In this document: positions 1-18,346 of the stretch, piece by piece
Position numbering within the stretch: position 1 is the stretch's first letter
Layout: each line of letters starts with the position of its first letter
DNA from: Fragilaria crotonensis
Lineage: Eukaryota; Bacillariophyta; Fragilariophyceae; Fragilariales; Fragilariaceae
Reading direction: 5' to 3'
Assembly: GCA_022925895.1 (NCBI GenBank)
Contig: JAKSYS010000777.1
Coordinates: 1-26,120 of the forward strand
DNA: 26,120 nt
Translations under genes and position numbers: made by a program
Notes under the pieces: generated by a model
What the model was told of the DNA's origin: nothing
What the model saw: the letters and a program-made list of their open reading frames with translations, nothing else
Databases searched by the model: none

Positions 1-427
1 CCCTAACCCCTAACCCCTAACCCCTAACCCCTAACCCTAACCCCTAACCCCTAACCCCTAACCCCTAACCCCTAACCCTAACCCCTAACCCCTAACCCCT
101 AACCCCTAACCCCTAACCCCTAACCCTCAACCCTAACCCCTAACCCTAACCCCTAACCCTAACCCCCAACCCCCCTAACCCCTAACCCCTAACCCCTAAC
201 CCTAACCCCTAACTCCCTAACCCCTAACCCTAACCCCTAACTCCCTAACCCCTAACCCCTAACCCCTAACCCCTAACCCTAACCCCTAACCCCTAACCCC
301 TAACCCTAACCCCTAACCCTAACCCTAACCCTAACCCTAACCCCTAACCCCTAACCCCTAACCCCTAACCCCTAACCCCTAACCCCTAACCCTAACCCCT
401 AACCCCTAACCCCCTAACCCTAACCCC
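1..427. repeat. Telomere, C-rich strand: mixed CCCTAA / CCCCTAA
   Basis: A continuous array of C(3-4)TAA units runs from base 1 to about 427, so the window starts at a left chromosome end. The 7-base CCCCTAA unit dominates, with 6-base CCCTAA units scattered through it and rare variants (CCCTCAA, CTCCCTAA, CCCCAA, a run of six C). On the G strand this is TTAGGG(G). The array stops sharply and passes into an ACGA-rich minisatellite. Mixed units could reflect telomerase slippage in the G run or homopolymer error in the reads. Confidence 0.97.
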
Positions 428-1949: not shown

Positions 1950-2319
1950 CTACCATTTGGTAGCGTTTGAGTCCCCTGCCTTCTGACTTGTCTACCATTT
2001 GGTAGCGTCAGTTTCGCAGACATTCAAACACCGACAAAGCACTTGTGCCGGCTGAGGACAAAAACATTCCGTCTACCATTTGGTAGCGTTTGAATTTGTA
2101 TCAAGCCATTCGGAGATCAGCGTCTGTTCAGCATTACTTACTCATTCTGGCAACTGCCACAAGCGAAATTGTAGTAGCTGTGGTTCGGTGACACCGTTGG
2201 CCACGCGGAAGCATTGCTCACCATTTGGTGGTATTGTGCTGGTCGTTACGGACACTGATTGGTTTCGAACTCCGTTGAAGATTGAAACCTCGACAGCTTC
2301 CTGACTCACCATTCGGTGG
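1950..2319. promoter_or_regulatory. Cluster of palindromic CTACCATTTGGTAG sites upstream of the dioxygenase-like gene
   Basis: Exact CTACCATTTGGTAG cores lie at 1950-1963, 1992-2005 and 2073-2086. Degenerate cores with CACCA arms lie at about 2219-2230 and 2308-2319. The arms CTACCA and TGGTAG are inverted around TT, so the site could bind a dimeric protein. Flanks alternate between two forms: GACTTGT-core-GCGTCAG and ATTCCGT-core-GCGTTTGA. The cluster ends about 140 bp before the ATG at 2460, which suggests a promoter or 5' region. The same two flank forms occur in the array at 11134-11614. Confidence 0.6.
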
Positions 2320-2459
2320 TTGGCCTGCTTACAGTGTTTTATCTTGAGACGGCCTGTTTCGAAGTGATAGCACGTCGCGACTTCCATTCGGTTGTCCGTG
2401 CAGCACTGCCAAGAAAGTTTGTAATAAATTTCTACGTGGAAACAAGTCTTTCTTTTCCT

Positions 2460-5400
2460 ATGTCGGAAACACACAAGAAAGGTAGCGCAACAGCGGGCCA
2501 AAAGGGAGCTGTCTGGAATAAGAGGACAAGAAGGGCATCATCGTCAACTCTTGGCTCGCGCGTTCGACAGCGAACATTTCCAAGTGAAACCGCTAGGCGC
2601 CTTATGGCGACCATGGCTTTGGATTGTGGCAACCCTCGTGCGTTGTTGAAGATGACTGGCGGGGTCGTCGGTCATGTTGATTCGCTTATGCCTAGATCTG
2701 ATTTTGTGGAATGCGATTCGGGTGACACCACCTTTCGTGACAACAAGGTTGGCGGTCGTCGCAAGACGGTCGAAGAAGCCGACAAATCCGACGAATCATG
2801 TACAACTGTTGGTGGTGAAGATGGGGATGAGAATGAACAAACCATTGACAAGCAATCGAAGAAGAAGAAGCGGAAAAAGTCCTTATGCTGCTTTTCTATT
2901 CCTTCGAAGCCGCAAATGGCACGTACATTCTCGAAGTGTATTCCAAAGCAGGATGTTGCGGAGTTTGAACGTCTTTTCAACTCCTTCCAAAGCCAAATGT
3001 CATGTCCGCCTGGGTGTGACAATCGTCGCGTCGACGTTAACGCATTGATCATCAAGACTCGGGTTGTCACCATTATTTGGGCACTTCAGCGGCTGTATGG
3101 TGTTGACAACGTTGTTTGCCAGAGATGCGTGGAAATGTGTGGAGAGCGCGTCGACGGTAAAGTTTTGTATAAGCAACACTTCGTAGAGATAGTTGCCATG
3201 GACGCTGTTTTGGCACGAACTCTGAGTCCCCCACGTGCTGTCACTGGAACAGAGACTGTTGACACTCCTGTCAGGTTCCTTGCTCAACGAAAAGAAATGT
3301 TGGATCCGAAATATGATCAATTGTTCCGCGCGTTTGTCGTCGTTGTCCCCGACGGCGCAACGTACTACTGCCACCGCGAGAGGCGGCGTGCCTGCATTGG
3401 TGTTGCCAACGCACTCATTCCGATGGACACGTCGTGGTTGAGAGTGAAACGAAATGGGAATCGCGGCGACCAATTCGCTCTTGGAGGCTACGTCTTGCGA
3501 CTTTGGGATGGGCAACCTTACTGGAAGTTTAAAATTCGCCGTGGAGAATCAAATTTCCAGCTGCGACCAATCCCAAGGAATCCGGCGGAGCGTCTCTCGT
3601 GGAATGTCAAACGGTCCAATTTGAAAGTCTTGTGTGCGTACCAGATGGCTGATGAAGTGGGACCAGCTATGCCCCCAGATTTTGTGGACGGGAAACAGCT
3701 TCAACATTGGCCGTCGTTGAGGCGCGCTTACCGAGCGGCTATCAACAACTCCCCTTCATCGAGGCGCGGTTGTAGGCACTACGCCCAATCACATCTTCAC
3801 CGCCGTATCGATCCGATGAAAACACTGGTCATCGACCCGAAAGAGGGAGATGTGGACCTCCGCATCGCGATTCAGGTTAAGCGTGCAGGTGACGAGAAAA
3901 AATTGGATTCTAGAAACGGACCCAAGCGTGATCGACTTGCACTTTCTCGTGAGTCGGTTGTGCAAATCCGCTACTTGCTGGACTTGGGAAGCGGAGCCCC
4001 GAAATTGGTTTCCGAAGTTTGGGAACACGCGAGCACTGCTACAAAATGGAATCGCCAGTCTGCTCGGCGTGGACTGGGTGATATGGGATCCATGCATCCC
4101 ATTGGAACACGCATTATGAAGGACAACAAGACTCGCGAGAGATACAAGACATCCCGTGGAACTCTCCAACAAGAAGCGTTGCGTAAGGCAGTTGTTGCGT
4201 CCGCTCGGCTGGCGGCTGTAACCATCCCTACTGTCCTGCGGATCATACAGGATGTTGAAGAGGATGGTGACCTTGACCCTCCCGAAGGTGGAATGAATGG
4301 TGATGGAGGGTGTCTGCGTGTGTCGTTCACGATGGATGTGAGCGTTGACCTTGCGAATGCTTCCCATTTCGATGTGAATGATGCGACACAAGGGTTCAGC
4401 ATATGGACCGAAGACGAACCTGGCACAACAAAGGAATGGTACTTCGTCTTGCCGAATGTATACGGGAGGAGGAGCCCCAGTGTGGACGGAAAACCCGGTG
4501 ACATTTATCATGGGGTTGCCATCAAGCTGACGCATGGTGTCCTAATTGGGTGGGATGGTCGCGTCATACGGCACTGTACGTCCGTAATGGATCGTGGAGC
4601 CCAGCAAATCACGTGTACGGTTCGTTTTTTGCGGCGAAGACTTCCGTCGTGGCGTACGGTGCGCGAATGGCTTTTGTGCGCGAAGCGTTGAGGAGAGTCC
4701 ATGCAAAGCAGGACCGAAGACGGGATCGACAAAGAACTGCTACCGGCGAATCTGTGGGAAAGGCTGTGACATGTGTTGGTGCGGGTGGTGAAGGACTTGG
4801 AGATGTTTTCGGTGCCCCGATTCCAAAGAAGAGTAAACAGGATGATATGACGATGGATCGTGGTTCTGCAGATGAGAGGTCAGTTGATGGTGAGGAATCT
4901 TGGAGTGACTACACTTACGCTAGTGGCGGCAGCGATTCCACTGGTGGTAAAGACGTTGGCTTCGTTTTGGAAAGGGATCCATTTGTTGAACGCGTGGAAG
5001 ACGATTTGAAGGAAACGAAGGCTGGTGATGTTGTTGCGGTTGGTAGGGAGTCGGCGTGTCCAGTTGCACAGGATACCGGTCCGTTAACGTGTGGTTTCCC
5101 TCGTGAGGTGTCGGTGCCTGGCAGCTGTGATCGCGCACCAATTGATCTCGTAGAATGTGACGACGAGATCGGCGGTTACCTGGATTGCGTGGCGCAGTGC
5201 CCTGGTGATGTCGCATCACGTGATACGGCTCCGAATTTCGAGGAAAATTCTGATCGACGTAGAAAAATCCGTTCTAGGGAACAACACTCGAGTTCCAGTG
5301 TGGCTGCTGGTTTCATCGGCGATTATGTTGATGGTGAACAACGAACAAGCGGTTGGGAATTGCATCGGAGGTGTCAGAACTTTTTGTCGAGAGAAGTTGA

Positions 5401-5959
5401 GGTATGCGGCACTCGAAACGCACGTTGTGAACACGGATGCGGTGGTCGGCAGCCGAATCGGAGCGGTGGCTATGAGGTGCCTGACTTTGGTGGCAGGGGC
5501 CAGGATGACAACCGACGGACTCCTTGCCGCGGTCGTGATCCTGGTTCGTGGCTAGGTGAACGGAAGCGCCCGCGTGGTGGGTTTTGGTGTGACACACGAG
5601 TTCGTGGCGAGCATTGTGACTTGGGACGAATCAATGGTGTGCCTGACTGGGAGCCTCGTGGACGTGGCGGGCACTGGGAACATCATCACGGAGAAGACTG
5701 CGTCGATGATCGTTGGTCTGGCATTCCTCTTGCCGGATCACACCGGCAAGAGGTTCGTGGGAACCACCAGTGGCACCCCCGACGCGATGGACTGGTATTA
5801 CCCCGCGGAGATCATTGTCATGATTTGCCGTCGGGTGGACGGAATCGTGGTGATTCGTCGTATAGGGGGGAAACACGAGGACGTGAATCATGCCTGATGA
5901 GGAATGATGGAAGGACGCCTGACGTAGATCAGCAACCTGCCAAATGTTTTCGGAAGTGA
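2460..5959 (+). pseudogene. 2OG-Fe(II) dioxygenase-like protein, possibly TET/JBP-type, with a -1 frame change near 4575-4631
   Basis: The start is the first ATG of the frame, at 2460; the longer open frame uses GTG. Frame one runs to a stop at 4689-4691 (743 codons). The continuing frame is open from before 4550 to the stop at 5957-5959. Visible parts: an acidic and basic low-complexity head with a KKKKRKK run near residues 134-140 (nuclear signal), a CQRCVEMCG cluster near 220-228, then a C-terminal core. The core has HFD at residues 636-638, WYFVLPN, then HGVLIGWDGRVIRHCTS with His at 705. An H-x-D plus a distal H inside a G-x-I-x-W-D-G strand is the metal-binding pattern of double-stranded beta-helix dioxygenases; assigning it to TET/JBP is inference. 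The second frame gives NHVYGSFFAAKTSVV, a plausible continuation, then an acidic stretch and a tail rich in RG, His and Trp. The gene may be broken by an indel, may frameshift, or may carry a sequencing error. Confidence 0.55.
4625..4631 (+). other. Slippery heptamer T TTT TTG in the frame of the first ORF
   Basis: In the frame used from 2460, codons here read CGT TTT TTG, giving the canonical X XXY YYZ arrangement. A -1 slip would enter exactly the frame that stays open to 5959. No strong downstream stem is obvious. The second frame looks more natural slightly upstream (NHVYGSF, about 4607-4627), which favours an earlier indel over programmed slippage. Confidence 0.3.
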
Positions 5960-6098: not shown

Positions 6099-7154
6099 TT
6101 ATAATGCTGTCTCCTGGGAGCTCAAGAATTGACAAAAAGATTCCTGGGTGGTGTAAATTCGTTCGATGTATTCCTGGAAGGTTCCCGGCATTTTTGAGCG
6201 GACAAAGTTGTGTGAAAGTAACCGTCGCAATCTTCCCTTCACGGGGCAGCTGTTGATTTCGTGCTTTGTAGCACCTGCTGCACCTTTGAAAACCCAGCAC
6301 TCACAGCATGCTCGCTTGTTCAAGTAATCCTTTTTAAAGGGACAAAGTTTGCGATCGTGTGTACTCACACCACATGCGTAACACATTTTCCATTGGAAAC
6401 ACACGTCTTTGTTCTCTGGCAGAGTCTTACTCCCAGTTCCTCGCAAGAGAGGTATTCCACGACATGTGGTTTTCCGACACACAAGACATGCCAATGACAG
6501 TTGGGTTAATACACGTCGCGAGGCACATTCGTTCGTTCGGGCGTGATGAATGCGGCTTGTGGCGTCTTTTTGGAGACTTGTCAATGGAATGTTGCGACAA
6601 AAGTGGCAGGCACCGCAATTGTGATCCATGGCTCTCCCAAACAAAGCTGACAAGATCTTGATTGCACATCCCCTTTGTCCTTGGGAGGTGTCAGATAACC
6701 AATCGCGAACTCCACTCGATGTCAGAACAGTTTTGAAGTTGGAATGGTCTTGTGAAGAAATAAAGTGCTCGTTCAAGAGCCGAGTGTAGCGGTGCTCGTC
6801 ATCCTTGGTTCGGTGATTGGACAATTTGTCGGGAACGGCAAATAACACTTGGCCGAAGGAGGTTCGCATGTAGCTTCGCAATCTACCGAAGGCTTGTACT
6901 ATCTGCATAGTATCGTACAGGTATCCTACGCAAACCAAATATCTGCAGGATGGATTTTCATTGCCAACCAAGCCCATGGTTGTCGATATGAGGATGTCTA
7001 ACTTTCCATTGCTCCATGCAGTGGCGATTCTTCCACTTCTTGGTGAGTAGAATCGGAGGAAACAAACTTGCATTTGTATGGGGTGGTGGTGGAAAGCTGC
7101 TCGAATAAAGTTATGCCATCCTTCTTCTCGGCAACAATAATGTGAGCAGCACAA
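6099..7154 (-). pseudogene. RecQ-like helicase, C-terminal lobe and Cys-rich tail
   Basis: From about 7045 downward the frame reads WSNGKLDILISTTMGLVGNE (motif V region) and then VQAFGRLRS (motif VI with its Arg finger). The first ~30 codons of the open frame are out of phase with the preceding helicase lobe and should be ignored. Beyond the ATPase come CGACHFC, CLVCRKTTC and a knuckle-like run MCYACG, H, C, then CCEC and HEINSCP. These probably bind zinc. The protein ends at the stop at 6099-6101, facing the + strand dioxygenase gene, whose stop is 140 bp away. Confidence 0.68.
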
Positions 7155-7807
7155 AGTGGACCTGATAGTCCTCCACTTGAGTCCATCTTTTTCTGTACGA
7201 ATCGGGCGGCGAGGTTTACGTACAGAGATGAAAAGGCCACCTTGATCTTGAACCCTTGCGGAAACTGACCCACAACATGATTCCCATGGATTACTTTAAG
7301 GTCGCTCATGTCATCGGTTTTGGACAAGCCGAGTTTCTTTGTAAATTTAGAAACCGCAAATGTTGGCATTGATCCACTTAACACGACGATGGGAATACCC
7401 AAACTTGGAAGTTTGGAATAAACCTTATATGTGTCGCGGAAACTTGTCTCAGAGAGGATGGTGTGGGCTTCATCTATTACAATTTTGTCGACAACATCCA
7501 CCCAAGACTTGAAAAGCTCCCCAGAGTAATGGAACAAATTGTTTAAGGCATCGAGGTTTAAGAACAGTAGGCTCGGGAGATTTTCTCTTCTCAGTTCTTC
7601 CGGCAAAACACCATCAGAAGTGATGTCTTGCCCCGTGAAAAGATGGATGTTGGCCTTGAGTCCATGCTTCTCGAAGGCTGCCGAACATGTGGCAAACTGA
7701 TATCCGGCCAGGAAGCGATATGGAGAAACATGGATGATGGTCTTGGAACTCTGGTTTGTAAGGAGGCGAGCAATAGTTGGGATTATATAGCATTCCGACT
7801 TCCTCAC
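6998..7807 (-). pseudogene. RecQ-like SF2 helicase, N-terminal ATPase lobe
   Basis: This frame begins within a split Walker A: the frame before it ends ALLAPGEE and this one begins RKSECYIIPTIARLL, so one base change would restore a G-x-GKS loop followed by the typical Y-x-x-P-x-x-A. Downstream are HVSPYRFLA (motif Ia region), VIDEAHTILSE (motif II, DEAH, bases 7463-7474) and VVLSGSMP (motif III position). The lobe then leads to the second lobe, where the frame changes again near 7020-7040. This segment shows the clearest homology in the element. The split at the ATP-binding loop means this copy is probably dead unless the break is a sequencing indel. Confidence 0.72.
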
Positions 7808-9440
7808 CTGGAGCTAGTAGAGCAATGCAATGTTGTGGTTTGGTGAAGGTTGTTCCATATCCGAACTCGACCAACTCTTTCTGCTGTAGTGACAAGTAAT
7901 TGTTGTTACTGTTGCTTGCTGATGCAGACATCGGATAGCGAAGACGCATTGCCGCACGCAGGTCAGCCAAGGAAAGTGTTGCCGGGGATCGCGAGGTTTG
8001 ATGTGATGTATCACCTATTGCAAAATGATATGCGCTGAAGTGTGTCTCCTCAGAACCTACTTGCTGGCTGGAGTAGGTCATCGAGTGCGTCAAGGAAGAA
8101 TGACCCATTTTTGAAGCTCCAATGGTGCTTGAGGAAAGGAAGTGATTGGGTTGGCCACCGGTCACAAAGTTGGAGACGCCAGCCCAAAAGTGCCGGACCT
8201 GTGTCATGTTTGGGACGGCGGATAAAGAAAAGAGATCTCGAATGATGTGTGATGGCCTGACATCAGAACGGTTGTTCCTTGTGGGGAAAATCAATCTGGG
8301 AGCATTGGAACAGCTGGGAAAGAAGCTTCCTTTTGTTTGGACAAGAGATCGAAACAATAAGAAGTAACGAGTAATGATGGGGGGTAACTTGCGTTCAATT
8401 TCCTTACAAGTGCGTTGTGACATGGCATTGAAGCCTTTCAAGGAAGAAAGTGTGTAGTAGATTGTATTGTTGGTGAACAAGCAGTGAAACATGGTTGGAT
8501 CACGCAACTCATTCAACCTTGCAGAGCCACCACCAAAACCATGAAATGCCATCTCCAACAGTGCTGTCAAATGGTCAAAATGATCCAGAGGAAAAACAGA
8601 ATCGGGCTTCCAAACGGGACATATATCTGCAAGGAAAAGGTCGCCGGTGTCGTCATCGACAACAACTTTTATGTTGCTCAGAACATCAACTACTGGCTCC
8701 CACCAGCTCCCGACCGCCAAGTTTGATACTGCCACATTCATCAAACACACCGTCTGCGGTACAATTTGTGACCAGTCATCAAACCGAAAAGAAAACTGAT
8801 CCACCGTGATGTTTCCTATTTCATCAATTGTTGTCTTCCTCCTTTTGGGAAGTCGGCGGTGCATTTCACGAATTTGTCGAAGCATCGGAGATAGAAAATG
8901 GAGAACATGCGATTTTCTTACAGCCATGATAAGAGCGGGACCGTGTAATGTGAAAGCGTCTTCCAAAAACGAACATATAACGGAACAAATGGCGGCTTTC
9001 AAAACTGATGCAACCTTTGCAATTACGGAAGAAATGGTGTCACAAGAGATCATTTTGATTTTGGAATCTTTCTTTTCAACGCGGAATCCCGTCATCAAAC
9101 AGAACTCAACTGCCAGGGGATGATGTTGCACGGAAGGTGGGATTTCAAGCATCAAATCCTTCAAGAAGTATGCAATTGAAAATCCGTCTCGGAAGTCAAA
9201 TGATTTGGCGGCAAAGAGACCACGTCGGTATGCAAATGATAAAAGCTTCTTGAGTTCAAAAAGTAAAGTAGATGGATCGTGTTGCATGGTGTAAGTCCAG
9301 CGTTGCGATACGTCTTCAACTTCATTGCCTTCAAATGTTTGCAACGCAGCACGGAGATTACCCGGCACCATCTTTATATTTTCTGAGCATAATTCAGAAG
9401 CCAAACTTCGGCAAGTTGGTGAAGTTTCACCAGAAAGGAC
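7808..9440 (-). pseudogene. Middle segment with a tyrosine-recombinase-like motif, leading into the helicase
   Basis: The frame is open from 9440 (after a stop at 9441-9443) down to the helicase start and has no upstream ATG, so it reads as an interior part of a longer protein. Most of it (about residues 1-360) is unrecognised alpha/beta sequence with LYTLSSLKG-like stretches. At about 8176-8208 it encodes TQVRHFWAG, and 30 residues later (8071-8109) MGHSSLTHSMTYS. R-H followed by G-H-S and a Tyr nine residues after the His copies the box I / box II layout of tyrosine recombinases. The usual His three residues before the Arg is absent. A Ser/Asn-rich linker follows, then QHCIALLAPG, the approach to a Walker A loop. 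Confidence 0.5.
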
Positions 9441-10304
9441 TCAGTCGCCGGATTTGGCGGTGAATGAATGGAGATAAAGTCAGTTTTGACTTTTCAACAA
9501 ACTGCCTGACACCGCCACAACGTGAAATAAGTGGAGTGAACATATGAGTGTACGTATCATCGTGCTTCTCCCTTGTGGAAGGAAAGGTAGAATTGCAGCT
9601 CTTGCCTCATTATAATCAAATTGTTGCTTGATCCTGGATGGTTCGGCACCCTGAAAAAATGATGTGACCTGTGATTGCGATACATATCTACCACATGAGA
9701 GCTTGATAAGATCAGCTTTCTGAAGTCTTGTTCCATTGCATCCCCATGTTTGGCAGTGACGATCAGCATTGGCCTTCCTCAAAAATGAAGGTCCGCATAT
9801 GCAGGAATAGCCAGAATAGGTATTTTTGTCCATTCGGAATTGTTCAATGCTTCCGGATGCCTTTGCTATGTTGAGTTGCATGTTATATCCATGAAGAAGA
9901 GATCGGACGGTTGTGATTCTGCTATCCATGCCATGTTTCTTGAGGTGGTTGCGAATGGATCGCTCATCCAATTTGATTGCTACATGTTTTTCACATTTGC
10001 GACAGCAGAGACCGAATGGGGAGAAGGTGAAGAGTGATTCTGGAATTGACTCGAGAGGGGAGTCAATCAAGTCGGATGTTGTTTTCCGTGTTTCGAATGC
10101 TTCTAATGAAAGCTGTTGTTGTTGGACAATGGATTCGGACACAAACGAAACCTCCGCTTTTCTTTTCAAAGAGGTGGAGCAAAGCATGGTGAAGATGGGA
10201 TGTATATGTGAGGGAGTGAACGAAAATGTGGCGCCACATGGAATTTCAAATGCTTTCGATGTACTGAAGTCTACGGCAGGAACTCCGTTGCTCACGATGC
10301 ACAT
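9427..10304 (-). pseudogene. Zinc-finger head of the helicase element (copy 1)
   Basis: ATG at 10302-10304 opens a 274-codon frame to 9480. About residues 100-125 hold CCRKCEK with an H-x3-H-like end (IRNHLKKHG), resembling the F9/orsellinic-cluster type finger domain found on some helicase proteins. A second finger reads CICG, then N-x2-RHC and GC. The segment from DERSI to LPFLP matches copy 2 at 12078-12614 very closely, so both derive from a real protein. Near 9575 the natural frame changes: the paralogue continues as TYTHMFTPL, and the same peptide occurs here in another frame that runs to a stop at 9427-9429. The two fingers probably bind DNA, perhaps the iterons just upstream; that is inference. 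Confidence 0.6.
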
Positions 10305-10445
10305 TCCCTTAAGTAAATATGACTCAGGATGTTCAAAAAATTACTCAGGATGTACAAACCCATATCAGAAATTACTCAGAATGTATCAAGTAAAAACATA
10401 TGTACCTGAAGAATTTTTATGTGTTTTTAGCCCCGCCCCCTTAGG
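10290..10445 (-). repeat. Terminal iteron module M1 (helicase element, copy 1)
   Basis: On the + strand, 10-base repeats lie at 10290 (GCTCACGATG), 10322 and 10343 (ACTCAGGATG) and 10374 (ACTCAGAATG). The spacings are 32, 21 and 31. TATCAAGTAAAA follows directly, then an AT-rich tail, GCCCCGCCCC and CTTAGG at 10440-10445, 66 bases after the last repeat starts. The first repeat lies within the first codons of the minus-strand gene starting at 10304, so the rest of the module forms that gene's promoter or 5' leader. Confidence 0.75.
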
Positions 10446-10757
10446 AATTTCATCACCAACCTTAACCCTATCAATCTTATGAAGGAATTTCAACACCAAC
10501 CTTAACCCTATCAGCCTTATGAAAGAATTTCAAAACCAACCTTAACCCTATCAATCTTGTGAAAATTTCTACACCAACCTTAACCCTATTAGTCTTATGA
10601 AAGAATTTCAACACCAGCTCTAACCCTATCAGTCTTATGAAAGAATTTCAACACGAACCCTAACCCTGTCAGTCTTATGAAACAATACCAACTCTAACCC
10701 TATTAGTCTTATGAAAGGATTTCATTACAAACAACCCTAACCCTATCAGTCTTATTA
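10444..10757. repeat. 40-bp minisatellite carrying a telomere-like AACCCTA, about 8 copies
   Basis: TTAACCCTATCA recurs at 10461, 10501, 10541, 10579, 10619, 10659, 10692 and 10736 within a unit that also carries GAATTTCAACACCAAC and CTTATGAA. The period is close to 40 bp. The array starts exactly at the end of module M1. Confidence 0.85.
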
Positions 10758-11133
10758 AAAACATTTATTCTTTTTAAGCGATCATAGTATCGGATCACTT
10801 GAAATTTTGACACTTAGGTAAACAAATTTTAGATGCTTTGTATCCCCTCATTGATTCTTGACGCCAAAATATTCTCACCGTACCATCTGGTTTTACATAC
10901 CATTCTTACTCAAGAACTGGTCTTAATAAAAAATTCAGTCCCTATTCAATTGGCATTCAGGACAATTCACTGCATTCTACATGTTTTTATATACAGTCCT
11001 TAATCATGCTCTGGTCTTATTAAATTTTTAGTCCAATTATTGACTCTTATAATGCGCTGTTGATCAAATTCAGATTTCATTCCTTCTTTGTTCCGGCCAT
11101 AAAATCAAGCATGGTCTCTACAAATCATTCCGT
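10758..11133. other. AT-rich spacer, nothing recognised
   Basis: No frame, RNA gene or array was seen. The sequence has many short T- and A-runs and a weak recurring TCTTATTAAA. Confidence 0.45.
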
Positions 11134-11614
11134 CTACCATTTGGTAGCGCTTGATTTGTCAAAGACCATGCTTGGAATCAGTTAACAATGATCCGATACT
11201 GGCCACTAGCCCTGCATTCCGACTTGTCTACCATTTGGTAGCGTCAGAGTTGCATGAGCGTGACGACGACGAATCATTCCGTCTACCATTTGGTAGCGTT
11301 TGATTTGTCATCGGAGCTCAGTATTGGTTGACCGACTTGTCTACCATTTGGTAGCGTCGGAGTTGTATGATCCTGCCGAGGACGAATCATTCCGTCTACC
11401 ATTTGGTAGCATTTGATTTGTCATTGGAGCTCGGGATTGGTTGACCGACTTGTCTACCATTTGGTAGTGTTGGAGTTGTACGATCCTGCCGAGGACGAAT
11501 CATTCCGTCTACCATTTGGTAGCGTTTGATTTGTTATTGGTGCTCGGCATTAGTTAACATCGTAACTGCAAGTGGCCCCTTGCACTGCATTTTGAGTTGT
11601 CTACCATATGGTAG
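11134..11614. repeat. Array of eight palindromic CTACCATTTGGTAG sites
   Basis: Cores lie at 11134, 11228, 11283, 11341, 11396, 11454, 11509 and 11601, each 14 bp. The inner spacings alternate 55, 58, 55, 58, 55, and the outer ones are 94 and 92. Flanks alternate between the same two forms as at 1950-2086. The last core (CTACCATATGGTAG) is a perfect palindrome. No gene follows on either strand, unlike the left cluster, so this may be the orphaned promoter or end of another copy of the dioxygenase-type gene. Confidence 0.75.
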
Positions 11615-11917
11615 CATCACTGTTGCATGTGCGGGAGTGCTGCTTGTAGTCCAAGCACTAGCGGCAGCCAAAGGCAAATCATTCAAGTACTGTAGAAGGT
11701 TTAATGCTAAGACGCATGTCCTTTTTTCATTGCAATGATTGGAAACGTGGACACAATGTCAATAGCAGACAATTGTGATGTTTGTTGCGATATCTTTGTG
11801 TTTGTGATATACTGATGGGGATTGGGAGGTCTGCGCCATATTTCGGTGGCTGATCCGCGCCTGCCATGCTGAGGATGTGATGACGACAAATAGGGACCCC
11901 TACAGCGGAGCTCTGTA
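11615..11917. other. Spacer between palindrome array and module M2
   Basis: No convincing coding frame. By analogy with M1 it could hold what is left of the body of the element that M2 terminates, but no similarity to the zinc-finger gene was found. Confidence 0.35.
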
Positions 11918-12075
11918 CCACCAAATGAAAAGGTTATGTATCTAAATGTACCACCCAATGCTGAAAAAGACACACCCGATGCAAGTTTTCCCATATTAGT
12001 ATTCCACCCAATGTATCAAGTAAAAAAATACATCCCCGAAGTTATTTTATATAGAAATTGGACCGCCCCCTTAGG
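11918..12075 (-). repeat. Terminal iteron module M2
   Basis: Repeats lie at 11918 (CCACCAAATG), 11951 (CCACCCAATG), 11972 (ACACCCGATG) and 12004 (CCACCCAATG), with spacings 33, 21 and 32. TATCAAGTAAAA follows, then the tail, CCGCCCCC and CTTAGG at 12070-12075, again 66 bases from the last repeat. I found the first repeat by looking where M1 predicted it. The CTTAGG edge abuts the coding sequence of the second zinc-finger gene. Confidence 0.75.
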
Positions 12076-12077
12076 GG

Positions 12078-12614
12078 TGTAAACATATGTGTGTACGTAT
12101 GATCCTGTTTTTCCCTTTTTGGAAGAATAGGAAAAAGCACAGCTCTTGCCTCACAATAATCAAATTGCTGTTTTGAATTGTGTGGTGATTCGTTGAAAAA
12201 TGAAGTGACTTTAGCATGAGTCACATACCTGCCGCAGCAAAGCTTGATGAGATCAACTTTCTGTAGTTTTGAAGAATCACAACCCACAGTCTTGCAGTGT
12301 CGATTTGCATTTCCAATCTTTACAAAGGATTGACCACACACACAAGAAAATCCAGCATAGGTTTTGCTGTCGCTCCGATACGGATCGATACTTCCCAAAG
12401 CCTTTGCATGAAGTAGTTCCTTTTTATATTCTTCAAGGAGAGAACGGACTGTCGAAAGCCTACTGTCCATACCATGTTTTTTCAGGTGAATTTGAATGGA
12501 TCTCTCGTCTGACTGGTATGATTTTATTGTGATTGCCAAGGGATGAATGGTATGATCGAGTTTAAATTCATGGATAGGAGAGTCTACAGAAGCAATCTGT
12601 AGCTCCCAATGCAA
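12078..12614 (-). pseudogene. Zinc-finger head gene, copy 2, truncated by module M2
   Basis: This is a paralogue of the 9480-10304 head. Shared runs include IHLKKHGMDSR, the CVCG / N-x2-RHC / GC finger, LQKVDLIKL-CGRYV, VTSFF, KQQFDY-EARA and TYTHMFTPL. The frame is open from 12614 to a stop at 12042, but the last codons (after TYTHMFTPL) come from module M2. Real homology therefore ends at about 12078, and the recombinase and helicase parts are missing. The frame starts at a TTG; no upstream ATG is evident, so the start codon may be lost. Its 5' side abuts module M3 just as copy 1 abuts M1. Unlike copy 1, the TYTHMFTPL region is in frame here, confirming that copy 1 carries a frameshift near 9575. 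Confidence 0.7.
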
Positions 12615-12757
12615 CTTTCCTTAAGTAATCAGTGGCTCTTGATGCAGAAAAATGGCTCCCGATGCAAATTTGCCTAAGTAAAATGGCTCCTGATGTATCA
12701 AGTAAAAATATACATATTTGAGGAAAATTTATCTAGTTTGAACCCCGCCCCCTTAGG
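12602..12757 (-). repeat. Terminal iteron module M3 (zinc-finger copy 2)
   Basis: Repeats lie at 12602 (GCTCCCAATG), 12635 (GCTCTTGATG), 12655 (GCTCCCGATG) and 12686 (GCTCCTGATG), with spacings 33, 20 and 31. TATCAAGTAAAA follows, then ACCCCGCCCC and CTTAGG at 12752-12757, 66 bases from the last repeat. As in M1, the first repeat lies inside the first codons of the adjacent minus-strand zinc-finger gene. Confidence 0.75.
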
Positions 12758-12955
12758 GCCTTCTCCTTAGGTGAACAGTTCTTGAATTGGACCAAAATCC
12801 AGCTGTCTCTTTTGGGTTGTGGACATGTCCATAGTTACTAGTGGATGCTTTGTTGTTCTGTGGTTGGCGATGTTGTTGCATGAGATGCATCGTACTTCTG
12901 CAACACCTGGGCGCGCCAATTGAGATGGTACGGGATCTACGGGAACGCGGCGTAG

Positions 12956-13121
12956 CACCCGACGTACACATCTCTAAATAAAAAGGGACACAGGTGCAAC
13001 AGGACATACAAAAAGTGACACCCACCGTACAAATCCTCAGTTAAAAATGTCACCCGCCGTATCAAGTAAAAGTATCTATATCTGTGGATATTTTATCTAT
13101 TTTTGGGCCCGCCCACTTAGG
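12956..13121 (-). repeat. Terminal iteron module M4
   Basis: Repeats CACCCGACGT (12956), CACCCACCGT (13019) and CACCCGCCGT (13051) are clear. Weaker copies lie between 12989 and 13007. ATCAAGTAAAA follows, then GGGCCCGCCC and CTTAGG at 13116-13121, 65 bases after the last repeat. Only about 200 bp separate it from the end of M3, and no clear gene remains there; a short minus frame with CISCNN and NH could be a remnant of another finger. Confidence 0.65.
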
Positions 13122-13440
13122 GGTACATAGCAAGTCCCGGCAGGTTCTTGCACGACATTAACCCTCTAATTAGTTCCTATTTTTAATTTACAATACTATT
13201 GTTCGCATCCCTTGTGCGTGCACATGTCAGAGCATAAACGCATGGTCACACGCCTGTTCGCACTAGCTCATACTGTACCGTAGAATCACGTGTCAGAGTA
13301 ATACTTGTTCGGTATGTACAGTGAAAGATATCCTCTACTATCGTACCAGCGAAGCACAGAAACAATAAAATACACTGATCGTGAAATTTTATCATGCTAT
13401 CTCCCATCCTACCTTAGTGGTTTCATTACACAATCCGACA
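13122..13440. other. Spacer between module M4 and the 190-bp satellite
   Basis: No coding frame or array recognised. Confidence 0.4.
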
Positions 13441-16102
13441 TTTCATGATGTATCTTCACTGAAAAGAGTCCAATATAAAATCTAAAACAAGCATCATATA
13501 GACCTTTAAAAGACAAACAGAGTTGAAGTGAAGACAATGGAGCGAAACGGTCCTGCTAAGTGGGTAAAGATCGATTTGCAGAACAATTTTGGAGTTTCCA
13601 ATCATTGTTGTTATGTGCACTGACGCCTCCTTTCATACTGTATCTTCACCAAAAATAGTCCAATTGAAAATCTGAAACGACGGACGATGATGCAAATTAC
13701 CCGTGAAGATAGTTTGATAGTAGGCCATCGAACGAAACGTACCGTTTAACGATGCAAACAGCAGAACGGCGAACGAATTTCGAGTCTTGAATCCTGACTG
13801 GCATGATGACCATCTCTGCATTTCATTATCTATCTTCACCAAAAATAGTCCAATTGAAAATCTGAAACGACGGACGATGAGGCAAATTACCCGTGAAGAT
13901 AGTTTGATAGTAGGCCATCGAACGAAACGTACCGTTTAACGATGCAAACAGCAGAACGGCGAACGAATTTCGAGTCTTGAATCCTGACTGGCAAGATGAC
14001 CATCTCTGCATTTCATTATCTATCTTCACAAAAATAGTCAATTGAAAATCTGAAACGACGGACGATGAGGCAAATTACCCGTGAAGATAGTTTGATAGTA
14101 GGCCATCGAACGAAACGTACCGTTTAACGATGCAAACAGCAGAACGGCGAACGAATTTCGAGTCTTGAATCCTGACTGGCAAGATGACCATCTCTGCATT
14201 TCATTATCTATCTTCACCAAAAATAGTCCAATTGAAAATCTGAAACGACGGACGATGAGGAAAATTACCCGCAAAGATAGTTTGATAGTAGGCCATCGAA
14301 CGAAACGTATCGGTTAACGATGCAAACAGCAGAACGGCGAACGAATTTCGAGTCTTGAATCCTGACTGGCATGTTGACCATCACAACATTTCATTATCTA
14401 TCTTCACCAAAAATAATCCAATTCAAAATCTGAAGCGACAGACGTTGAGAAACATTACCCTCGAAGTTAGTTTGACATATGGTCATTGAACGAAACGTAC
14501 CGATTAAGGAAGCAATCAACAAAATGGCGGACGAACTTCGAGTTTTCAATCGTGATTGGCATGTGCACCATCTGTGCATTTCGTACTCCATCTTAATCAA
14601 TAATCGTCGAATTTTATATCTGAAACGACGAACATTGAGAAGCGTTAATTGCGAAGAAAGTTGCACGACAGATCTTGAAACGAAACGTACCTCTTGATGA
14701 TCCAAGTAGTAAAATGGCGAACGAACTTCGAGTTTTCATCCGAGACTGGCATGTGCAGCATCTTTGCATTTTGTACTCCATCTTCGCGAATAATCGTCCA
14801 ATTTGATATCTGAAACAGCCAACATTGAGCAGCATTTAAGGTGAAGAAAGTTGCACAGTGGGTCTTGAAACAAAAGAACCTCTTGAGGATGCAAACGAAG
14901 GATGTGAAAGCAGCACTGATATCAGGAGTGTGGAGTGCACAGCTCCAATTTTGGGCTGCAAAAACATTCGGACAATACCATGTTACTACGTGTGATATTG
15001 TCTCCGTGTTGCGAGTGATTCTCCTCCGGACGTAGTAATTCCTAAGTAAAAAATCCCTCCGGACGTCAAAAATCCCCCTCCGGACGTAAAATCACCACTC
15101 CGGACGTATCAAGTAAAAGCATCTATACTTGAGGATTTTTTATCCAGTTCGAATCCCTTTTCCTTAGGATGGAAACAAACCTGTTGAGGATGCAAACAAC
15201 TGAATTGACAATGAATATCAAGTCCTTGATGGTGATTCGCACATGTACCAACTCCTTGTTCCATACTGTATCTTGACGAATTAGAGCCTGTTTTTAAATC
15301 TGAAACAAGAGACCTTGAGAAGAGTTGACGTGGAAGAATGTTGGACACAAGACCTCTGACGGAAACAAACCTCTTTAGAATGCAAACAATAAAATAGAGA
15401 TTAAGATTTGGTGTTCAATCGTGAATCACACATGAACTCACTCCTAGTTTCATACTGTATCGTCACGAATAAGGAGTCCAATTTTCAATCTGAAAGGACA
15501 GACTTTGAGATTGGTTTACCTCGAATAATGTTGGACCTCCAAACAACCACACCTGTTAAGAATGCAAACAATGAAATAGAGAATGAAATTTCAGTGTCCA
15601 ATCGTGATTCACAAATGATCCAACTCCGCATAACATTACTTCATCTTCACTTACAAAGCTGCTCAACAGATCTTCAAGCAAAAGGTACCTCTTGAGTTTT
15701 GAAACAACAATACGAATGGTACCTCTTGAGTTTTGGAACAACAATTCGCAGAATGACATTCAATTTTTAAACGTGTTCGGCATGTGCACCACATGTGTGG
15801 TTCATACTCCATCTTCACGAATAATTGTCCAAGGTACCTGGTAGTATCTGAAAGGATGCACGATGAGAACAGTGGAGATGAAACTTGCACAACAGATCTT
15901 TGAACAAAATGTACCTCTTGAGGATCCAAACAACAATTTACAGATCATCAATCGATAATTGATTTTTATCATGATTGGCATGTGCACCACCACTGCACTT
16001 CATATATCATCTTCCCAAACAATAATAGTCCAATCGAATATCTGAAACCACGGATGTTGAGAACAGTGGTAGGCACTTGCACAACAGATCTTCAAACAAA
16101 AT
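13441..16102. repeat. 190-bp satellite array, about 13-14 copies, interrupted once
   Basis: A unit marked by TATCTTCACCAAAAATAGTC, GAAACGACGGACGATGAG, CGAACGAAACGTACC and GATGCAAACA repeats with a period of about 190 bp. Four copies (anchors 13641, 13831, 14021 and 14209, then 14399) are almost identical. Copies before and after are progressively diverged (13451, ~14586, ~14776, ~15270, ~15455, ~15640, ~15812, ~16008). The antisense open frames in the array are repeats of one another and show no protein signature, so I do not call genes. Module M5 interrupts the array at 14885-15168, and M6 ends it at 16103. Confidence 0.88.
14885..15168 (-). repeat. Module M5 with flank; first copy of a 284-bp duplication
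   Basis: This block is almost identical to 16103-16386 (offset 1218; a few base differences). The right half is an iteron module: CTCCGGACGT at 15024, 15057, 15078 and 15098 (spacings 33, 21, 20), then ATCAAGTAAAA, a tail, and CCTTAGG ending at 15168. CTTAGG starts 65 bases after the last repeat. The left half, read on the minus strand, is open for about 45 codons beyond the iterons. By position it would match the start of a head gene. Confidence 0.78.
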
Positions 16103-16386
16103 GAGGATGCAAACGAAGGATGTGAAAGCAGCACTGATATCAGGAGTGTGGAGTGCACAGCTCCAATTTTGGGCTGCAAAAACATTCGGACAATACCATG
16201 TTACTACGTGTGATATTGTCTCCGTGTTGCGAGTGATTCTCCTCCGGACGTAGTAATTCCTAAGTAAAAAATCCCTCCGGACGTCAAAAACCCCCCTCCG
16301 GACGTAAAATCACCACTCCGGACGTATCAAGTAAAAGCATCTATACTTGAGGATTTTTTATCCAGTTTGAATCCCTTTTCCTTAGG
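16103..16386 (-). repeat. Module M6 with flank; second copy of the 284-bp duplication
   Basis: CTCCGGACGT repeats lie at 16242, 16275, 16296 and 16316, and the tail ends in CCTTAGG at 16386. Identity with 14885-15168 is near complete, so the two copies are recent relative to the diverged satellite between them. The transposase remnant starts shortly after. Confidence 0.78.
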
Positions 16387-16493: not shown

Positions 16494-16562
16494 AGAGCAA
16501 CAACCTGGAGATGAGACAATCTACCAGGCGAAGCAGAGCAACAACCTGGAGATGAGACAATC
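16494..16562 (+). repeat. 28-bp direct repeat in front of the transposase
   Basis: AGAGCAACAACCTGGAGATG through GACAATC occurs at 16494-16521 and 16535-16562, separated by 13 bases. It lies just before the recognisable transposase homology and may mark a rearranged 5' end. Confidence 0.65.
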
Positions 16563-18346
16563 ATGCTTCTGGGGTCTGGATATTGGAATGGCTTCATGAG
16601 AAGGCATCGACACGTAATTCGAAGCAAACGCTCTGTTACATTCGAAGCTAAACGCACCGAATGGTGCACTTACGAAAATTTCTCCGACATGTATGCCCAC
16701 ATTTATGAAGCGATGGTCGAGCACGGCATTGCATCAAAATGTGACAGGAAGGTGAAGCTGATGACGCGTTCGGACTGCCGACGCAATATCTCATGCTAAG
16801 ACCTGACAAACTAATCTTTGTCGATGAGGTGGGTTCAAATACCTGTACAACAAAGGATGTGCACGTTGGTGGTGAGAAATTCTTGTGCAAAGCAGACCAA
16901 AGACCACAAATAAAGGCGGCGACCAAAGACTCACATTTTACAGTGCTAGGGTTTACGGCGGCATCAGGTGAACCCGTCATGTGTGCAATAATATTTTCTG
17001 CGAAGGAAATGTGCCGAAGCTGGGTGTTAGGACTCAATGCATCTGCTCCATGGGTTGGTGACAATAAGGACTTACGAGCAAACACAGGTGGTATGGACAC
17101 ACGACACCCGCAAGGATCAGTGTGTCACTTCAACGGAAAGACAATTCCCACTTTCTGCTGCTGCTCCGAGAACGGAAGCATCACATCAGAGCTTCTGGTG
17201 GAAATGCTTCGTGCCGTCGACAACGCTGGCGCTTTTGATCGATCTGATGGCATTCATCCATTTCTTCTTGTCGACGGTCATGGCAGTCGTTTTGAATTGC
17301 CATTCTTGAGGTATGTGAACGACGCCGAGGGCACTGGTAGAAAATGGAATGCATGCGTGGGTGTGCCGTATGGCACAAGTTACTGACAGGTGGGAGACAG
17401 CAGCGAACAGAATGGCTGCTTTAAAATGGCGCTTACCAAGTACAAACGTGATCTGCTGAGAGCCAAAGAGTTAGCAGGACTTGAATTTGGAATAAACAAA
17501 GAGGACGTCACTTACCTTGTTTCTCAGGCATGGACGCATTCATTTGCTCGTGTTGCACAGAACAAATCAGCCATTGCAGATCGTGGATGGAATCCTCTCA
17601 ATTACAATTGCTTGCTTCACCCTGAAATTGTTGCGACAAGGTATAACAGAGAACAAGGACTTGGTGGTGGCGGTGGCAGCAACAGTTGTAGCAATGAAGG
17701 AGGCAGCAGTGACGATGACGGTCGGGAAGATGTCATGATACCGGCAGAAGGATTGCAGCTTGTGGACCAAATGAACTTATCGCAAGGGGTATCTGGATCA
17801 CTGATCAACACACTTCTTGAGAAAAGAAATCGCGATGATGCCAGGAATGGCATTAATTTTGAAGAAATCCGGCTCAAGAGAATTGAAACGTCGAAACAAA
17901 TTGTTGTCGATAAGAAAAAGAGATATACTTCTGGACTTCATGTGGCGTGTCAGAGATTCATGGTAGGTCCAGAGGTTCTCGACGACTTGGAAGAGCGAGA
18001 GCTGATGCAGGCAGCTATCATTTCTGGGCGTCAAGAGAAGAAGTTGATGGAGTTTTGATCTCTGAAGACGAAGGTTGATGCTTTAAAAGCATTGAACAAG
18101 AGTCCGAGTGATATGAATGTTAGTCAACTGAAACTCATGGTGACATGGTACAAACTTGCCGGCGATTTACCAGTTCCAACAACAAGAACAGCGCTCCTTG
18201 AACGAATGCGTGCCACCATTGGACGAGAAGATCCAAGGGAGCCTGCGATACCCACTCTTGTTCAAATGCCGCCACGGCCTGTGGCAGTTGCAGTGGCAGT
18301 GACAGCAGCGGCAACTGCCATGGTACAAGACGGACTTGCCGAATGA
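16515..18346 (+). pseudogene. DDE transposase (pogo/Tc1-like, DDE_1 type), broken by a frameshift and two in-frame TGA codons
   Basis: Three frames join into one protein. The first (16515-16750) encodes SGYWNGFMRRH and AEWC-like WCTYENFSDMYAH; the natural continuation AFGLPTQYLMLRPDKLIFVD lies in another frame, so an indel sits near 16750. The catalytic core has FVDEVGSN (Asp at 16823-16825), FLLVDGHGSR (Asp at 17273-17275) and QVGDSSEQNG (Asp at 17396-17398), spacing about 150 and 41 residues. Just before the last motif, GVPYGTSY is followed by TGA (17384-17386) where a Trp codon would be expected. A second TGA in the same frame (18056-18058) precedes a SAP/HeH-like segment (MNVSQLKLMVTWYKLAGDLP). 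A Gly/Ser/Asp-rich linker lies at about 17662-17735. The N-terminal DNA-binding region is missing. No terminal inverted repeats were found. Confidence 0.72.

Follow-up and report, generated by a model that had tools for sequence, protein, structure and literature searches.

Modules with a shared CTTAGG terminus as the probable fixed end of a polar chromosome-end element in Fragilaria crotonensis

The locus and the module family

The window (contig JAKSYS010000777.1 of Fragilaria crotonensis over its full length of 26,120 nucleotides, here contig C754) starts in telomere repeats and contains six modules, M1 to M6, built on a plan of four short repeats (iterons), a constant tail and the terminal motif CTTAGG. 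Beside M1 lies a gene whose product combines a zinc finger, a predicted tyrosine-recombinase fold and a helicase. From the telomere inward, the order is a complete type A unit (10.4 kb), type B, type C, a type F remnant, type D and a pair of type E. The genome comprises 62.1 Mb in 881 contigs; apart from the genome-wide pattern search, the counts below cover stretches extracted from these contigs. The features are:

1..427: telomere repeat (CCCTAAC/CCCCTAA), outer end of the type A unit
2286..5959 (+): second gene of the type A unit (gene 2), convergent with the helicase gene, in two overlapping frames
6099..10304 (-): zinc finger / predicted tyrosine recombinase / helicase gene beside M1, frame-broken, start codon uncertain
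6099..7813 (-): DEAD and Helicase_C domains
8043..8840 (-): predicted tyrosine-recombinase fold (window equivalent of C490 protein residues 410-675)
9894..10034 (-): ZnF1 of the M1-linked gene; helix residue +6 is Asn (codon 9948-9950)
10291..10445 (+): M1, type A; iterons CTCACGATGCA, CTCAGGATGTT, CTCAGGATGTA and CTCAGAATGTA, then tail and CTTAGG end
11919..12075 (+): M2, type B, joined at a GG site within the type C gene of M3
12045..12620 (-): zinc-finger gene of type C next to M3, truncated by M2
12603..12757 (+): M3, type C
12758-12771: 14-bp stretch abutting M3, identical to the final 14 bases of a type F end
12956..13121 (+): M4, type D, second iteron decayed
15024..15168 (+): M5, type E, adjoining a 190-bp satellite
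16242..16386 (+): M6, type E

The original prediction, made from the letters alone, had placed six modules in one orientation in a diatom genome and had read them as the recombinase- or replication-binding end of a mobile-element family. All six were found at the stated positions on the + strand of this diatom contig, and the sequence GTATCAAGTAAAA, which follows the last repeat, matches exactly at 10383, 12013, 12695, 13059, 15106 and 16324. Recomputed start-to-start spacings agreed as well: 32/21/31 for M1 and 33/20/31 for M3 (scored on the identical copies C490_10183 and C121_85950, respectively), 33/21/32 for M2 and 33/21/20 for M5 and M6. For M4, only the final step (32) is clear, as already noted, because the second iteron is decayed; iterons 1 (12956), 3 and 4 are present. 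Other type D modules are spaced 33/21/32 (two) or 32/21/32 (one). The tail (e.g. 10389-10444, +) begins with GTAAAA and ends in CTTAG|G; read on the strand that does not code for the gene, it could be mistaken for a GT-AG intron of small size.

A pattern of tail plus CTTAGG gave 60 matches in the genome, with one module counted twice, and the reversed control pattern gave none in the same genome. In total, 63 modules were extracted, 47 of them distinct; the commonest spacings among the distinct modules were 33/21/32 (13) and 33/20/31 (8). The four-iteron score exceeded the best of 235 shuffles (26.1) in 42 of the 47, the remaining five being truncated, decayed or divergent copies, including M4 (score 26.1). 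Iterons share a C[TA]C...G skeleton with differing cores. The iteron word varies between modules and is nearly uniform inside one module, and the 17 labelled types carry 13 majority words:

Type A: CTCAGGATGTA
Type B: CACCCRATGYA
Type C: CTCCYRATGYA
Type D: CACCCGMCGTA
Types E, T: CTCCGGACGTA
Type F: CACCAGTGGTA
Type G: CTCCTRTGGTA
Types H, S, V: CTCCCGTGGTA
Type I: CTCGCAACGTA
Type J: CACCCACCGTA
Type U: CACACRATGCA
Types X, Y: CTCCCGACGTA
Type Z: CTCCGGAGG

With a wider end pattern than the tail pattern, 85 module ends were counted in the sequence examined. They are spread over 28 contigs and have 75 different right flanks, which rules out a simple satellite. The modules are not randomly placed either. 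Adjacency to zinc-finger/helicase genes, which had been expected for a mobile family, was checked for the extracted modules. Counting matches on the opposite strand only, 35 of the 63 modules had a long zinc-finger match no more than 1.5 kb away; the match was short in four further modules and absent in 24. Among the 35, at least M4 and C411_8645 borrow the gene of a neighbour. Together with the sharp terminus described below, the adjoining gene supports the reading as the end of a mobile family. Contig C199 (~61,850-61,973) holds a divergent module whose tail is shorter and which the wider end pattern does not capture; a zinc-finger gene is absent from the stretch examined there.

Terminus, target site and polarity

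In most pairs of same-type modules, similarity breaks off no more than a few bases from CTTAGG, and on the gene side it extends from 3 to more than 1,500 bp. Pairs that remain similar past CTTAGG appear to be copies of a single junction. Many arrays have a broken gene side that starts at the CTTAGG of another module. Such nesting is also found in the window, where the similarity of the M6 unit to its copy on C783 stops at the CTTAGG of M5 and the gene of M3 stops at M2.

An intact homologue of the target was available for 38 of the 75 different right flanks; for 37, none was found in the sequence examined. The homologue carried GG exactly at the join in 32 of the 38 junctions. GG ending 1-20 bases before the join occurred 0-4 times, and GG one base after it 20 times, the latter being frequent because base +1 is often G (45 of 75 flanks). 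For C84_82872 and C592_13728, the first homologue is itself a module, and use of another homologue gave 32/38 instead of 33/38. Each of two pairs (C84_82872/C592_13728 and C273_33564/C578_13795) looks like a single junction, and merging within the pairs gave 31/36. The target consensus, A-G-G then G (AGG|G), has the letters of the element end TTAGG. A classic target-duplication transposon was rejected: the junctions compared show AGG|G, and no duplicated target was seen among them. A search for reciprocal exchange, i.e. for left halves of targets joined elsewhere at GG, gave most matches from C84_82872 and C592_13728, whose homologue is a module; the other matches, in eight other events, were weak or repeat-derived.

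A second end was sought in 32 testable events. The left half of the target was not found distal to the unit in 26 of these (0.7-9 kb of distal sequence examined). It was present in C84_75942, C592_14300 and C592_15702, with 399, 1,214 and 0 bp missing, respectively, the last being a 196-bp tandem copy; three further events are repeats or microsatellite. Only one terminus, not the two of a two-ended transposon, was found within the limited distal sequence. From CTTAGG out to the telomere region, contigs C490 and C754 have a block in common; the parts compared, on either side of ~4.3 kb of the C490 block, are 97-99.7% identical, and the inner flanks of the two contigs differ.

All ends on a given contig lie on one strand: none of the 28 contigs, 19 of which have at least two ends, shows both orientations. 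This is the firm result for polarity; a comparison with the nearest contig end (59/85) is weak because the contigs are broken. Modules together with a clean telomere run at the contig start were found on C490, C592 and C754, with the gene reading toward the telomere. One precise end, a truncated other end and one orientation relative to the telomere, the last on these three contigs, are features that the units share with telomeric non-LTR (long terminal repeat) elements. Further telomere-type runs occur on C71, C320, C411 (inside), C427 and C438. On C551, near 29,880-30,030, interstitial TTAGGGG repeats lie between a gene 2 piece and a type D unit, in the sense opposite to the usual telomere strand.

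Around these units, three other observations were made. The 190/378-bp satellite at 13641-14894 recurs on C776, C783 and C588. Beside M6, at 16560-18058 (+), open frames resemble a broken DDE-type transposase by eye, with no Pfam match at E 0.1. The imperfect palindrome CTACCATTTGGTAG is repeated at 1948-2100 (distal type A unit) and at 11130-11600 (gene-less type B unit) and is possibly a mark of the outer part of a unit.

The adjoining protein and the iteron-finger correspondence

The gene adjoins the module on the opposite strand and reads toward the telomere. The copy on C490, 99.7% identical to the window gene, is open for 1,324 amino acids. Pfam matches above the cut-off, with the protein scanned in two pieces, were DEAD (5.2e-14) and Helicase_C (2.7e-6); a finger was not among the matches. 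The N-terminus is predicted to form a C2H2 finger, with strands 12-15 and 18-21 and helix 34-43 around C21, C24, H40 and H44, i.e. the C-x2-C ... H-x3-H spacing and beta-beta-alpha arrangement in the predicted model. In the collection searched, 37 relatives were found at E ≤ 0.001 among 7,992 candidates scored. R517, E520, K544, R625, H656 and Y665 are invariant in a 32-row alignment that includes two relatives at ~25% identity, and by our motif assignment R517, K544, R625, H656 and Y665 are the catalytic residues of a tyrosine recombinase (R, K, xxR, H, Y). Residues 410-675 of the predicted model (predicted local distance difference test, pLDDT, 78) match tyrosine recombinases and TopoIB, which points to a tyrosine-recombinase fold; with Foldseek alone, Cre ranks first (E 0.13). 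A Helitron would have an HUH Rep nuclease and a Pif1-type helicase; here, the helicase is DEAD/Helicase_C and the domain upstream is the predicted recombinase fold. DUF3435 was not among the Pfam matches at E ≤ 10, in a scan that drops most weak matches, and no reverse-transcriptase family was found in the pieces of the helicase protein or of gene 2 scanned with Pfam.

Gene 2 is 1,175 amino acids long in the relative P0040. The protein collection contains 18 relatives, of which four bear the name F. crotonensis, including MHU86_21152. It gave no Pfam family above the cut-off, and its predicted fold was unusable (pLDDT 35). No relatives were confirmed in viral and prokaryote contigs.

ZnF1 helix residue +6 corresponds to base 8 of the majority iteron in all 14 gene-linked types (N/I with T, D/E with C, R with G), six of which played no part in forming the rule. 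The rule was formed on types A to H, eight in all; for additional types, the helices were read first and the modules afterwards. By majority word, the rule holds for X, Y, Z, V, U, T and S and for a second copy of D. The prediction was not fully blind, as an X module and Z-like, Y- or T-like words had already been seen, and V and S share the iteron word of H. In a scan of 189 residue and base pairs, +6 with base 8 ranked first and +5 with base 7 second. The former remained first when near relatives were merged (12 types, p 0.0004) and was first of 161 pairs in the six types outside rule formation (p 0.018); these p-values are uncorrected. Among the contact rules of C2H2 fingers, Arg at +6 contacts G. 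At the sequence level, helix residues +6 and +5 match iteron bases 8 and 7.

Types C and G are 57% identical in ZnF1 and 100% identical in the rest of the protein, and their iterons differ along with ZnF1, so module and ZnF1 travel as a cassette. The base 8 label changes eight times on the tree of the rest of the protein (shuffled mean 9.4) and six times on a tree of ZnF1 from which both contact columns were removed (shuffled mean 7.4), both trees having weak branches. Six to eight changes argue against simple descent for the link of finger and iteron, with too few pairs for strict sign tests.

Interpretation and comparison with known systems

As compared here, the terminus is sharp, the target follows AGG|G, each contig has one orientation and the second end is variable or missing. 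We consider it somewhat more probable than not that a polar chromosome-end element has the modules as its one fixed end, facing the centromere, and that its own protein likely binds the iterons via ZnF1; this protein is predicted to attach the CTTAGG end at AGG|G sites of DNA from other chromosome ends. ZnF1 would bind the four iterons on nearly one helix face and present the recombinase at CTTAGG, which would exchange one strand within AGG. The helicase would open the donor, and helicase-aided copying would proceed outward until the telomere is reached or the template happens to switch. On this scheme, the unit would need no second terminus. Each new unit would cap and truncate the preceding one; such outward copying would produce one polarity, nested truncation and precise inner junctions. 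From the correspondence of words and helices, we infer that the finger lets each element tell its own end from those of relatives.

Several results weigh against this interpretation. GG is absent at six of the 38 joins (C84_82872, C592_13728, C431_33705, M1, M5 and C588_16721). The three events with a left half are internal insertions and show that a unit need not be terminal, and other left halves were possibly missed beyond the distal sequence covered. A clean telomere run starts just three of the module-bearing contigs, C23 has one with neither module nor zinc-finger match, and no replicative intermediate was seen. The window copy of the gene is frame-broken. Foldseek alone gave no match at E ≤ 0.001, and the VIA notes caution that helical models may reach middling Z by chance. 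As to the finger, single iterons deviate at base 8 (the first iteron has T in type Z and A in type Y), +6 also tracks base 10, and +5 with base 7 drops to fifth (p 0.011) once near relatives are merged. Shared descent of the cassette, the module lying near ZnF1, inflates the p-values, and strongly supported branches leave just one to three independent pairs.

An ordinary two-ended tyrosine-recombinase transposon of Crypton or Starship type, inserting at AGG and later losing its second ends by subtelomeric exchange, is unlikely. The predicted fold, the short core match and the frequent nesting would suit it, as would a gene at the terminus reading inward, the arrangement of Starship captains; yet the copies compared have no common second terminus, target left halves are absent or shortened in the sequence examined except in one tandem copy, and random insertion should give both orientations, which no contig has. 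Less probable still is a module serving only as promoter or operator, with ZnF1 binding the iterons for control of its own expression and the boundary arising from other rearrangements. In most pairs, the ZnF1 codons have the start of the tail ~230-380 bp upstream of them, and by eye its gene strand carries a GC box and a TATA-like stretch, but the base-exact shared terminus and the GG target rule are left unexplained; roles in expression control and recombination could coexist. The least credence is given to target-primed copying of an RNA or single-stranded DNA with the 3' end CTTAGG, primed by CC of the target via a borrowed reverse transcriptase. A 2-nt match could prime, and one precise end with truncation is reported for telomeric non-LTR elements (FoTeR; PMC12857005). 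The template would, however, run antisense to the gene, no reverse-transcriptase family appeared in the pieces scanned with Pfam, and the unit carries a recombinase-like domain instead.

Beyond the polar-element reading, and more tentatively, at somewhat less than an even chance, the units may form a new category of mobile element whose second end is the telomere. Its finger-recombinase-helicase protein would mark its own end by a heritable protein-DNA code, join it to AGG|G and move the whole chromosome tip outward of the join, and ends would compete with and replace each other, each with a private word, at least 13 of them in this one genome. If true, one genome would hold at least 14 natural finger-site pairs, a natural test bed for how mobile DNA distinguishes its own ends from those of relatives. 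Co-change of a mobile-element protein with end specificity, and the rebuilding or exchange of chromosome ends without retroelements, would become testable. No paper on a finger-recombinase-helicase element or on F. crotonensis chromosome ends was among the matches listed, with most subscription journals outside the coverage.

The integrases of CTnDOT and of integrons are tyrosine recombinases that need only two to three bases to match, or exchange a single strand and let replication complete the process. They differ in being bacterial and, to our knowledge, in lacking chromosome-end polarity.

Cryptons, of which CryptonS is known from a diatom, carry direct repeats of 4-6 bp at the two ends in most groups, with none found in animals (PMC3212892). 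They resemble the present element as DNA elements with the catalytic residues of tyrosine recombinases in their protein and a short core at the junction; the diatom element differs in being one-ended and in joining finger and helicase in one protein, the word 'helicase' being absent from the Crypton text available (PMC3212892). Like the Starships of Pezizomycotina, in which a recombinase gene moves large, variable cargo (PMC12134995), the unit carries a recombinase-like gene, but it is non-fungal, without a DUF3435 match in the Pfam scan, in one orientation per contig and with no second end found. Telomere-linked helicases and FoTeR/MoTeR of fungi share with it the chromosome-end position, the single orientation, nearby helicase genes and an excess of truncated over full copies (PMC12857005). 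FoTeRs encode a reverse transcriptase (PMC12857005), whereas the diatom helicase protein itself holds a recombinase-like domain and sits at the fixed end. If the present reading is true, some of the chromosome-end helicase genes, in fungi called telomere-linked helicases, may be mobile elements that carry a recombinase.

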